A DNA stretch of 64,000 bases from Alphaproteobacteria bacterium (GTDB lineage Bacteria > Pseudomonadota > Alphaproteobacteria > UBA6615): NCBI GenBank assembly GCA_039980135.1, contig JBDXCV010000009.1, positions 195,854 to 259,853 on the forward strand, written 5' to 3'. Numbering within the stretch: the stretch's first letter is position 1; each line of letters opens with the position of its first letter. Below the pieces are notes generated by a model. That model ran no database searches. It was given only the letters and a program-made list of their open reading frames with translations, and was not told the DNA's origin. Shown piece after piece: positions 15,999 through 20,707 of the stretch. Position numbers and translations under genes: made by a program.

Positions 15999-16493
15999 TC
16001 AGCAGTCCACCCAGCCGTCGGCGGTCTTGAGGCGGTGGGTGATGTTGTTCTGGGGCGTCAGCATCGCCTCGATGAAGCAGCCCTTCTTGGCCGCCTCGAT
16101 CAGCCGCAGCTGATCCTCGACCGGCGATTCCGTGTCCATGGAGATGTCCATATGGATGCTCTTGGGCGCAGACTCATAGGGTTCGCGGCCCTTCTGGGTC
16201 GCCACCCATTCGCAGCGGCAGGAAATCTTCGGGTCCTCGATGTCCACACGCAGGCGCTTGGAGAAGGCGCGCATCTGGGTCATCAGGCAGGAGGTCAGCC
16301 CGGCGATGAAATAGGCGATCGGCAGCGGGGCCGAGCCGTCGCCGCCATGGAAACCATACTCGTCCGACGCCATCTGCCACTCGATGACCTCGGGCACCAT
16401 CAGGCGTACATCCATCTCGCAGCGCATCTTGCCCACACCCGTGGCATCGCACTCGAACGCCACGTCGAAACTCTTGATATCGTCTTTCGCCAT
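15999..16493 (-). CDS. OsmC/Ohr family peroxiredoxin-like protein
   Basis: This 164-residue protein has the OsmC fold. The first redox cysteine is seen in IAGLTSCLMTQMRAF and the second in AAKKGCFIEAML, the places of the reactive pair in OsmC proteins, which reduce organic hydroperoxides in the cytosol using lipoylated or dithiol partners. The sequence between (KISCRCEWVATQKGREPYESAP) matches the family. ATG 16493 (MAKDDIKSF) fits the family N-terminus; the longer frame has no support. It is divergent from the SDR gene at 16659, and stands alone. Its target peroxide is unknown. Confidence 0.85.
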   Translation of the reverse strand: MAKDDIKSFDVAFECDATGVGKMRCEMDVRLMVPEVIEWQMASDEYGFHGGDGSAPLPIAYFIAGLTSCLMTQMRAFSKRLRVDIEDPKISCRCEWVATQKGREPYESAPKSIHMDISMDTESPVEDQLRLIEAAKKGCFIEAMLTPQNNITHRLKTADGWVDC

Positions 16494-16658
16494 CGTCTTC
16501 GTCCCCGGTGTATTGGTGGTTTTATTGTTCGCTGCCCGGATTGTGCCGTAGGCTTGCCGCCATGCAAAGAGGCGGCGAGACAAAGGCAAGATTGAACCAA
16601 AAGCCCCAAATCGCTATGCATGGGGGAACATCAAAAAGAACCAACCGGGGGAAGTTCC

Positions 16659-18095: not shown

Positions 18096-18249
18096 CGTCA
18101 TGCCCGCACGCGTTGCGGCCATCCACGTCATCGGGTCACGTGACATCACCACGTGGATGGCCGGATCAAGTCCGGCCATGGCGGTATTTGTCTGAAAATC
18201 CGGGCGCACACAACACCATCGTCATGCCCGGACTTGATCCGGGCATCTC
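18096..18249. repeat. Three REP-like palindromes, last cluster of the series
   Basis: Units at 18096-18126, 18156-18181 and 18220-18249 (family A) fill the gap before the first selenoprotein gene. The first two with their spacer repeat the composite at 3390-3476, including CCACGTCATCGG and CACGTGGATGGCC. I see no further copy of these families between here and 64000. Confidence 0.75.
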
Positions 18250-18273: not shown

Positions 18274-19365
18274 CTACATGTGCCGGAACGTGTTGATCGC
18301 GGTGCTGAAGTCGTTGATGCCGAGCTGTTCGCGCAATTCCACGGTGTCGTTGAACATCGGCATGTCGAGGGGAATGCCGAGGGCATTGGCCATCCGGTCG
18401 TTCTTGGTGAAATCCCCGGCGATGGCCGAGATGCCGGCGATGGCGACAGGGCCGAGCGCTGCGGCAAGCTCGGTGCGCACCTCGTCCAGCGCCTTGCGGT
18501 CGGTGCCCAGCACCAGATCGGAAAACGCCAGCAACAGATTGCCATGGGGGACGCCGCTGTCCAGTTCCGGCCGCACGAGGGCTTCCGGGTTCACATTCAG
18601 GTTTATCGCTTTGCCACTCTCACGGAGGTTCCTTGCATGCCCGGTCGTTCAGTAAAAGCAGTCGTTGAGCGCTGACACACGCCCCGCGACGACCTCCGTC
18701 TGGGGCCGCGTCAGCCCCTCGTGATAGTGGAGATCGAACTCCATCAGCCTGTCGACGGGCACATACTGCGCGCCTTCGAGTTCCAGATTGGCGCGATACT
18801 CGTCGGGCACGAGGCTCAGACAGCGAAATATGAAGGGGCTCCACTTACCGAGGAGTTCCCGGGCGAATTCACCGCCCTCGGGCAGGTTGGGAATTGTCGG
18901 CACGAAGGCCTCTTGCTGTTTCGCCTCGGCGGGGCGAACCCGCGACGGCTCACCGGGCTCGGGCGCAGGCAAGGGCCGCAGGGGCACGCCGAGGCCGCGG
19001 GCGAAAACATCGAGATTGGTGATGAATGCCACCAGCGCGATGATCTCGGTATATTCCGCATCGCTCAGGCCGGTACCAATGGCCGCCTTGTAGAAATCCT
19101 CGTTCACGACCCTGGGGGTCACGGCTACGGTCGCGATAATGTCGCGCACGACCCTCGGCAGTTCGAAATCGCTGACGGCGCCGCCATCCTCCGGCGCCTC
19201 GAGCACGCCGGCATCGATCCCCGCCTGGCGCGCGGCGGAAACCACCGCGATGCGCTGCGCGCCGCTGCCCCAGGTGCCGGGCTTGCCGAACCGGTCGAAC
19301 TGGGCCTGGTGGGCCGCCTCGAGGTGAGGGCGGACCGGAAAGGGTGAATCTTCATACAGGCGCAT
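18274..19365 (-). CDS. AhpD-like selenoprotein with in-frame UGA (Sec239), copy 1
   Basis: Read through one UGA (18649-18651), this is a 363-residue protein. Residues 1-238 hold an N-terminal carboxymuconolactone-decarboxylase-like domain (GLSDAEYTEIIALVAFITN) and end RVSALNDCFY; the UGA follows, then TTGHARNLRESGKA and a C-terminal part ending INTFRHM. The junction gives Cys236-Phe-Tyr-Sec239-x-x-x-His243, the C-x-x-C-x-x-x-H redox site of AhpD with selenocysteine for the second cysteine. The downstream frame stays open for 125 codons and matches the paralogue at 19514. AhpD-like proteins act as cytosolic thiol/peroxide reductases. ATG 19365 (MRLYEDSPFP) matches the paralogue. A cysteine-to-UGA recoding by tRNA-Sec requires sel genes elsewhere, none being in this window. 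Confidence 0.85.
18616..18629 (-). other. Candidate bacterial SECIS hairpin, copy 1
   Basis: The RNA downstream of the UGA can fold as ACCUC-CGU-GAG(A)GU, five base pairs with one bulged A and a CGU loop. The loop begins 24 bases after the UGA, within the window used by bacterial SECIS elements, and has a G in its first two bases. The stem is short and other folds are possible. Confidence 0.4.
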
Positions 19366-19513
19366 CGAACATTCGCCATCCGCCGACGGCGTCCATCGTT
19401 GAATGTATACCTGATTCAGTACCAGACCCGGGAACAGGATTGCACCCCGTGGCAAACGAAGATGGCAAGGCTCCCATGTGCGTCCGGCATGGCCGCACCC
19501 GTTTGCACCGGCG

Positions 19514-20605
19514 TTACATGTGCCGGAAGGTGTTCGCCGCCGACCGGTAGTTGTTGAGGCCGAGTTGCTCGCGCAACTCCTCGGTGCCCTTGAGGACGGG
19601 CGGGTCCACGGGAATGCCGAGGCCGTTGGCGACCCGATCGTTCTTGGTAAAATTACCGGCGATGGCCGCCGCCCCGGCGATGGCTTCGGGTCCGAGTGCC
19701 GCGGCGAGCGCCGCGCGGGCCGTATCCAGCGCTGCGCGGTCGGTGCCGATGATCGCCTCGGCGAAGGCCAGCAGCAGGTCGCCATGGGGCACACCGATAT
19801 CCAGTTCCGGCCGCACCAGCGCTTCCGGGTTCACATTCAGGTTTCTTGCTTGTCCACTCTCACGGAGGAACCGGGCATGCCCGGTGGTTCAGTAGAAGCA
19901 ATCGTTGAGCGCGGACACCCGCCCGGCGACGACCTCCACCTGGGGCCGGGTCAGCCCCTCATGATGGTCGAAGTCGAACTCCATGATCTTCTCGAGCGGC
20001 AGATACTGGGCGCGCTCGAGCGCGATATGGTCGTTGAACTCTTCCGGCACCAGGCTCATGGCCCGCATGATGTAGGGCTTGAACGGGCCGTACATCGCCT
20101 TGGCCACCTCGCCGCCCTCGGGCGGGTTGGGAATGGTCGGCACGAAGGCCTGCTCCTGCACGGCCTCGGGCGGGCGCACCCGTGACGGTTCGCCGGGCTC
20201 GGGCGCCGGGAGGGGCCGCAGCGGGACGCCAATGCCGCGCGCGAATACATCGAGATCGGTGATGAAGGACACCAGGCCGACGATTTCGGTGTATTCGGCA
20301 TCGCTCAGCCCGCTGCCGATCGCCGCATTGTAGAATTCCAGATCCACATCCTTGGGTCGCACCGCGACCGTGGCGATGATGTCCTGCACCACCTTGGGCA
20401 GTTCCAAGTCACTCGTGGTGCCACCGTCTTCGGGTGCTTCGAGCACGCCGGCGTCGACCCCCGCCTGGCGCGCGGCCGCGATCACCGCGATCCGCTGGGC
20501 GCCGCTGCCCCAGGTGCCGGGCTGGCCGAACCGGTCGAACTGGGCCTGATGGGCGGCTTCCAGGTCCGCGCGGACCGGGAAGGGTGAATCTTCATACAGG
20601 CGCAT
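19514..20605 (-). CDS. AhpD-like selenoprotein with in-frame UGA (Sec239), copy 2
   Basis: This tandem paralogue has exactly the same length (363 codons) and the same UGA position (codon 239; 19889-19891). The motif is Cys236-Phe-Tyr-Sec239-Thr-Thr-Gly-His243, followed by ARFLRESGQARNLNVNPEAL, which aligns with copy 1 without gaps. Upstream (LSDAEYTEIVGLVSFITDLD) and downstream (GNFTKNDRVANGLGIPVDPP) parts are conserved to the same degree, as expected for one continuous protein rather than two genes. The start is ATG 20605 (MRLYED), or GTG 20614. It lies 102 bases after hupE on the same strand and 148 bases before copy 1, so the three may be co-transcribed. It is a probable cytosolic redox enzyme; the substrate is unknown. 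Confidence 0.85.
19856..19869 (-). other. Candidate bacterial SECIS hairpin, copy 2
   Basis: The same CCUC-CGU-GAG(A)G hairpin as in copy 1 is present at the same distance from the UGA; the 14-base CTCCGTGAGAGTGG stretch is identical in both genes. A second, stronger palindrome (CCGGGCATGCCCGG) lies 8-21 bases after this UGA but is not kept in copy 1, so it is the weaker candidate. Confidence 0.4.
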
Positions 20606-20707
20606 CCGGATCACCGTTGGCTTGGTTGAACTCGCGTAACCCTAACAGAAAAAGGCGCCGGCCTGCGCCCGCGCCCTCTTCAATTCCAGTTGTTCGGCGC
20701 CGTTCGC

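Follow-up and report, generated by a model that had tools for sequence, protein, structure and literature searches.

Two adjacent genes on the minus strand of an alphaproteobacterial contig each contain an in-frame TGA, which raises the question whether they are broken genes or whole genes in which the TGA is read as selenocysteine (Sec). Both lie in a stretch of 64,000 nucleotides, here called the window. Copy 1 (P0001; 19514..20605, minus strand) runs from an ATG at 20605 over 363 codons to a TAA, and copy 2 (P0002; 18274..19365, minus strand) from an ATG at 19365 over 363 codons to a TAG. Each holds a single TGA, at codon 239 (19889..19891 in copy 1 and 18649..18651 in copy 2, both minus strand) in the context CFY-TGA-TTGH, and no further stop is met before the end on readthrough. 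The original prediction had placed the two genes at exactly these positions and on this strand, with the UGA at codon 239 in CFYUTTGH. As it also anticipated for normal gene callers, translation table 11 splits both genes into short ORFs: a 241-aa ORF (19889..20614) and a 106-aa GTG ORF (19514..19834) for copy 1, and an ORF stopping at 18649 and a 106-aa GTG ORF (18274..18594) for copy 2. The two products align gap-free over 363 residues at 75% identity, with pS 0.448 above pN 0.138 before the UGA and pS 0.413 above pN 0.160 behind it; together with the family-wide TGA, the latter values bear out the claim that the protein stays conserved behind the UGA. The argument that independent nonsense at the same codon is very unlikely holds only in part. 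The pair of UGAs is indeed more than chance, but the two are not independent, as both descend from one duplication of a gene already carrying the UGA. The strong evidence is therefore the conservation of the UGA throughout the family and not the coincidence between the copies.

Both products belong to NCBIfam NF041238 (AhpD_rel_CFYUT, alkylhydroperoxidase-related (seleno)protein), with 369.4 bits for copy 1 and 331.5 bits for copy 2 against a cut-off of 175, covering positions 1-357 and 1-356 of the 357 in the profile. The CFYUT-type CxxU motif with a His four residues behind it is present in both, both match Pfam CMD, and the UGA aligns with the second, catalytic Cys of the CxxC in the AhpD structures 6k40 and 3c1l. 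TIGR01926 scores 35.6 and 38.3 bits for the two copies, with a cut-off of 81.8. That AhpD-like proteins form a known prokaryotic selenoprotein family, as originally proposed, agrees with this catalogued entry and with the accessible part of a 2026 review (PMC13188914), which has a family entry 'AhpD-related protein (hypothetical protein 1, Sargasso Sea metagenome)' with CxxU. According to excerpts of a 2005 paper (PMC1088965), the Sargasso Sea hypothetical protein 1 family is marked by a CXXU motif and was predicted to have a SECIS.

Next to this membership stands the constancy of the UGA. All 66 distinct homologues, pooled from class, taxonomic-family and related searches, carry TGA at the CxxU place and none carries Cys; the alignment kept rows with U only, and in the full match lists every full-length row has U. 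Among 385 genomes of the class, NF041238 is found above its cut-off in 27, and 48 of the 48 matches listed hold one TGA. In the taxonomic family the gene occurs in 18 of 24 genomes (22 matches, each with one TGA), and two gammaproteobacterial genomes gave 5 further matches, 5/5 with TGA. Among 398 genomes of the phylum, the present genome alone gave a match at E <= 1e-30, and among 369 genomes of the class of G763 the gene was met in G763 alone. The 385-, 398- and 369-genome searches covered the best 4 or 5 candidates per genome, and extra copies may be missed. Homologues with Cys (TGC/TGT) in place of the UGA, which the original prediction proposed to look for, were not found among the 385 class, 398 phylum and 24 family genomes or the 369 genomes of the class of G763. 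Cys forms exist, since the part of the 2005 table (PMC1088965) that concerns hypothetical protein 1 gives them, but they are rare or absent in the present sample. A tblastn search with P0001 against 72,556 plasmid records gave no match and 26 pattern matches in viral contigs included no relative of the family, so a mobile-element origin was rejected.

Both UGAs might also be ordinary stops, leaving pseudogenes or split pairs in which a second gene starts from the GTG 19 codons downstream, and the 106-aa GTG ORF behind the UGA in both copies would suit such a split. However, the residues between UGA and GTG, including T240 and H243 just behind the UGA, are invariant in the 66 rows, which makes a separate gene from this GTG unlikely. 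Homologues that stop at the UGA and are followed by a separately initiated gene had been named as contrary evidence, and this check did not go against the prediction. The UGA in every homologue, the Sec machinery of the genome and the finding that, among the 385 genomes, the family occurs only beside a strong SelA also argue against ordinary stops, which are considered extremely improbable.

The Sec machinery is complete in this genome (3.76 Mb, 15 contigs, 98.8% complete). tRNA-Sec (71.2 bits, gathering score 47), SelA (538.9 bits), SelB (467.2 bits) and SelD (284 bits) were all detected, and their genes lie on contig C3 within about 17 kb. The check for selA, selB, selC (tRNA-Sec) and selD that accompanied the prediction thus returned all four, and lack of a Sec system does not count against it. 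SelA reaches at least 263 bits in 56 of the 385 class genomes, a threshold chosen after inspecting the list, in which the next score is 64.3 bits; Pfam's own SelA cut-off is passed by 77/385 genomes and also admits related enzymes. The 56 include 27/27 genomes with the NF041238 family, and none of the 329 class genomes without strong SelA is family-positive (hypergeometric 3e-26, relatedness being ignored here as in the p-values for codon use and selection below). With the Sec machinery in the genome, T240 and H243 invariant behind the UGA and neither contrary outcome encountered, the selenoprotein reading is supported: the two apparently stop-broken genes are almost certainly whole selenoprotein genes of a catalogued bacterial redox family. 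For copy 1, Sec decoding can be taken as near certain; for copy 2 the certainty is lower.

In 7 of the 27 family-positive class genomes, a family member lies at most 5 kb from selA (G007:C741, G091:C73, G123:C19, G185:C80, G227:C550, G279:C50 and G357:C22), which suggests linkage of the family to selenium genes in those seven lineages; this is not the case in the present genome. The present genome also holds four more CMD/AhpD-superfamily ORFs with an in-frame TGA at a CxxU, with 124-135 codons open behind it. These are L122, L123, L124 and L126 (G000 C3:1000492, C3:590034, C9:87338 and C3:850707), with the motifs CQHUIEH, CNHUISH, CFYUTHH and CSYUGNV. None of them reaches an NCBIfam full-protein cut-off, the exception being a marginal match of L122 to the AhpD core domain (27.9 vs 27.8). 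Counting the pair in the window, 6 of the 19 Pfam CMD matches in the genome hold a TGA.

Sec insertion in bacteria is guided by a SECIS hairpin behind the UGA. According to the published bacterial SECIS model, as quoted in the accessible part of PMC13188914, this has a loop of 3-9 nt, a stem of 4-16 bp, a G as the first or second base of the loop, a distance of 16-37 nt from the UGA and an MFE <= -7.5. The hairpin predicted behind the UGA of copy 1, GUUCCUC-CGUGA-GAG(U)GGAC (19852..19871, minus strand), fits this model, with a 5-nt loop CGUGA, 7 pairs with a bulge, a distance of 24 nt and a 60-nt MFE of -12.7 kcal/mol with the inner pairs formed, as judged from folds computed here and not by the program of the model's authors. 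The region behind the UGA aligns without gaps in 57/57 sequences first collected. In these, columns 25-27 and 33-35 read CUC and GAG (one exception, in one pair), and the second loop base is G in 57/57. The six-pair helix 22-27/33-38 is paired in 91.3% of 288 cells, which 0/500 shuffles reach, and its double-change cells and covariation score also lie above all 500 shuffles. The number of pairs with a double change (54/500 shuffles) and of extra pair types (46/500) is not outstanding, and slides of +1 and +2 give 10 and 19 double changes, compared with 9 in the proposed register. RNAalifold on the 57 sequences returned three inner, invariant, non-covarying pairs only (-0.9 kcal/mol), and a four-pair RNAalifold route to covariation was dropped for that reason. 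Codon use is restricted at the same place: Leu at +8 is CTC in 56/56 sequences vs 378/1670 elsewhere in the genes, and Arg at +9 is CGT in 49/56 vs 181/1392 elsewhere.

Short folds are less clear. The stability of the 52-nt fold is no better than that of shuffles (z 0.06 for copy 1 and 1.47 for copy 2), and the fold of copy 1 is dominated by a competing upstream hairpin, CCGGGC/GCCCGG. The inner-pair probability is below 0.5 in 25/66 sequences, including copy 1 (0.36). An Rfam scan of the region gave three sub-threshold hits, none of them to a SECIS family. The competitor is a self-complementary ACCGGGCATGCCCGGT-like hairpin at window positions 19874-19887, between UGA and SECIS, which outcompetes the SECIS in short folds; it is found in the present genus and its neighbours (L021-L028) and is absent in copy 2. 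A ribosome standing at the UGA would be expected to cover part of it.

The predicted hairpin of copy 2 (18612..18631, minus strand) has lost its lower stem, leaving CUC-CGUGA-GAG and one C-G past the bulge. Its loop, G and spacing fit the SECIS model; it has at most 4 pairs, and its 60-nt MFE of -6.4 lies outside the limit of the model. An identical 20-mer hairpin is shared by 19 of the 66 sequences, including copy 1, and copy 2 differs from it with four stem bases changed. When the hairpin is forced, copy 2 is the weakest of the 66 (-0.9 kcal/mol, the next being -3.8 and copy 1 -5.7), and it is the only one of the 66 with a 60-nt MFE above -7.5. Given this degraded hairpin, as predicted from sequence, the two copies are not equivalent.

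Copy 2 also evolves faster. Codons were taken as lineage-specific where one sequence differs and the other four of the set (copy 1 or 2, L022, L023, L024) agree. The resulting ratio of nonsynonymous to synonymous changes is 33/27 for copy 2, against 1/13 for copy 1, 2/9 for L022 and 1/8 for L023 (33:27 vs 4:30 pooled; Fisher p 2.7e-5, relatedness ignored). The nonsynonymous share of 33/60 is nevertheless below the neutral share of 0.747 (p 0.0009), as is that of 10/20 behind the UGA (p 0.018), both with relatedness ignored, and copy 2 retains 36/36 columns conserved at >= 90%, UGA and active site included. On these substitution patterns, copy 2 looks more like a gene in fast evolution than like a simple pseudogene. 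As its lower SECIS stem is lost and its evolution is faster, its UGA is probably decoded with lower efficiency, and copy 2 may be on its way to a different function or use. Within the literature searched, the fast evolution of copy 2 together with the weakest of 66 hairpins is new, a modest addition.

A stronger version of this, tentative but possible, would be that only copy 1 works and that copy 2 mostly stops at its UGA, releasing an N-terminal half of 238 residues, as a step towards becoming a pseudogene or towards a new use of that half. It would account for the weakest hairpin of the set, lying alone above -7.5 kcal/mol where 19 sequences including copy 1 share one 20-mer, and for the 33:27 changes. 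The apical stem and loop are intact, however, all 36 conserved columns including the UGA and the active site are kept, and the 10:10 changes behind the UGA lie under the neutral share; this selection may predate the hairpin loss. An unlikely further idea is that the eroded SECIS makes copy 2 a selenium gauge, giving the full enzyme when selenium is ample and the 238-residue N-terminal half as a regulatory product when it is scarce, and that NF041238 proteins are Sestrin-shaped selenium enzymes whose dead N-terminal half serves as a sensing or docking platform.

Relatives carry a single gene at the same place, between the same neighbours. The tandem pair was found in one of seven same-genus genomes, the present one; two others (87% and 79% complete) are without any match. 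Several class genomes (G279, G185, G065, G357, G281 and others) have between two and four members of the family distributed over separate contigs, so that several copies per genome are common, and a tandem was seen in the window alone. The second copy in the same-genus genome G759 (L110) was rejected as an orthologue of copy 2, being a different paralogue with a strong hairpin and cut by a contig end. The pair could in principle stem from misassembly or from an amplification of very recent date, as it is tandem in the present genome alone and the other gene-bearing genomes of the genus carry a single copy here. Yet the products differ in 25% of their residues, both copies lie inside a 796-kb contig, and their dS of 0.65 exceeds that between copy 1 and L022 or L023 (0.37-0.39), which leaves this explanation with hardly any probability. 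From the same dS values, the duplication seems to predate the genus-level separation from L022/L023, in which one copy would then have been lost; alternatively, copy 2 would have come from outside. Copy 1 is separated from L024/L021 by a dS of 0.87-0.98, which places the duplication after the split from these two, while in the protein tree copy 2 branches outside L021/L024; this deep placement is probably due to the fast evolution of copy 2.

The original prediction considered a tandem pair next to hupE unusual. The tandem arrangement is indeed so, but the neighbour is not informative: hupE adjoins the gene in L021, L022, L024 and L091, and the interval is missing in L025, L026, L027 and L028. 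Since the adjacency is not conserved, hupE says nothing on function, and a functional link was rejected. A promoter and terminator scan gave, on the coding strand, no promoter-like site and three terminator-like sites (20670-20653 behind hupE and two overlapping ones inside copy 1; 4 in all vs a shuffle mean of 2.0). Behind copy 2, at window positions 18096-18249, a repeat-like stretch matches L022 7174-7327 in both orientations and gives rise to weak Rfam hits. Some 1.7 kb from copy 2 and outside the tandem there is an OsmC-like gene (window 16002-16589, minus strand), which belongs to another peroxide-related family and is conserved in neighbours.

What kind of protein is recovered by reading through the UGA is suggested by the active site. 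In copy 1 (19877..19936, minus strand), E224, C236, Y238, U239 and H243 form a predicted helix-turn-helix site, and copy 2 has the same five residues (18637..18696, minus strand). E224, C236, the Sec position 239 and H243 do not vary across the 66 aligned sequences, and Y238 hardly does. The spacing is that of Glu36-Cys48-Tyr50-Cys51-His55 reported for PA0269 in the part of PMC3141380 describing its site, with Sec replacing the second Cys. An AlphaFold model based on 13 sequences is all-helical (mean pLDDT 80.5, pTM 0.86), with helices at 220-233 and 237-253; across the five models mean pLDDT falls from 80.5 to 60.0, and the linker 149-184 is mostly below 50. VIA-align places Sestrin2 first (Z 17.3, rmsd 3.3, 242 aligned, model residues 1-332), followed by single AhpDs with Z about 11 and unrelated chains with at most 3.1. 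Taken by themselves, the N-terminal 145 residues (pLDDT 87.9) match the AhpD-like 3c1l with Z 10.1, unrelated rows scoring from 3.8 down, although the tool warns of high scores for helical bundles. Foldseek gave no match at E <= 0.001, with Sestrin2 on top at E 0.04, and a profile of the 66-row family gave 19 PDB hits at E <= 10, Sestrin not among them. These models make a fused AhpD dimer the probable architecture, in which the N-terminal half is dead, lacking a site, and Sec lies in the C-terminal half.

As defined in the available portion of PMC11429811, Sestrins carry an acidic hinge (DDYDY) in place of the C-terminal helix-turn-helix and have their catalytic Cys in the N-terminal half. 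Assignment to the Sestrins was rejected, as the C-terminal half here keeps the helix-turn-helix with the site and the sequence has no DDYDY. That portion also describes bacterial fused AhpD dimers (Corynebacterium ureicelerivorans, Comamonas aquatica) in which only the C-terminal half has Cys; selenocysteine is not mentioned in it. Literature on sestrin, AhpD and bacterial selenoproteins yielded no work joining sestrin and selenoprotein among the matches listed. The modelled fused-AhpD-dimer fold resembling Sestrin2 along its length would therefore be new within the literature searched, again a modest addition.

Taken together, it can be held with high confidence that both genes encode NF041238 selenoproteins, with UGA 239 decoded via an in-gene hairpin and a fused AhpD-like dimer as product, likely a peroxidase or adaptor, and that copy 2 is a tandem duplicate, probably less decoded. 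SelB and Sec-tRNA would read UGA 239 as Sec, guided by the coding-sequence hairpin 24 nt behind it. The product would comprise an N-terminal AhpD-like half without a site and a C-terminal half with E224-C236-Y238-U239-H243, the CxxU form of the AhpD proton-relay site. By analogy only, a peroxidase activity is proposed, and the most likely role would be that of a thiol/selenol peroxidase or a peroxiredoxin-reducing adaptor. As in AhpD, the Sec/Cys pair would meet a hydroperoxide or an oxidised partner, form a selenenyl-sulfide between U239 and C236, and then be reduced by a cellular thiol system. Copy 2, arising from the tandem duplication, keeps this active site, evolves faster and has its lower SECIS stem lost, and Sec insertion is probably poorer in it.

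An apparently frame-broken gene pair would thus be a selenoprotein pair, of which callers stopping at the UGA lose the active site. A natural paralogue pair with an intact and an eroded SECIS in one genome makes it possible to test directly how large a part of the bacterial hairpin is required. In addition, a selenoprotein family on a Sestrin-like fused AhpD dimer would provide a bacterial selenium comparison for the way in which Sestrins arrived at one working and one silent half.

Compared with known systems, the pair shares with NF041238 and the Sargasso Sea hypothetical protein 1 the full-length match, the CFYUT motif, the length, the Sec position and the downstream hairpin; it differs in its tandem arrangement and in a copy 2 without the lower SECIS stem. 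The passages on this family in PMC1088965 and PMC13188914 do not mention the fused AhpD-dimer architecture proposed here. With AhpD and AhpD-like proteins (PA0269, M. tuberculosis AhpD, TIGR01926) the five-residue proton relay and the helix-turn-helix are shared, the latter lying here in the C-terminal half, whereas the second Cys is replaced by Sec, the length is doubled and an extra AhpD-like N-terminal half without a site is present. Like the bacterial fused dimers in the available portion of PMC11429811, the present proteins carry an active site in the C-terminal half but lack one in the N-terminal half. With Sestrins they appear to share two AhpD-like halves per chain and, in the model, a whole-length structural match to Sestrin2 (Z 17.3). 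Unlike Sestrins, which have Cys125 in the N-terminal half, their predicted site is C-terminal, has Sec, and keeps the helix-turn-helix where Sestrins have the hinge.
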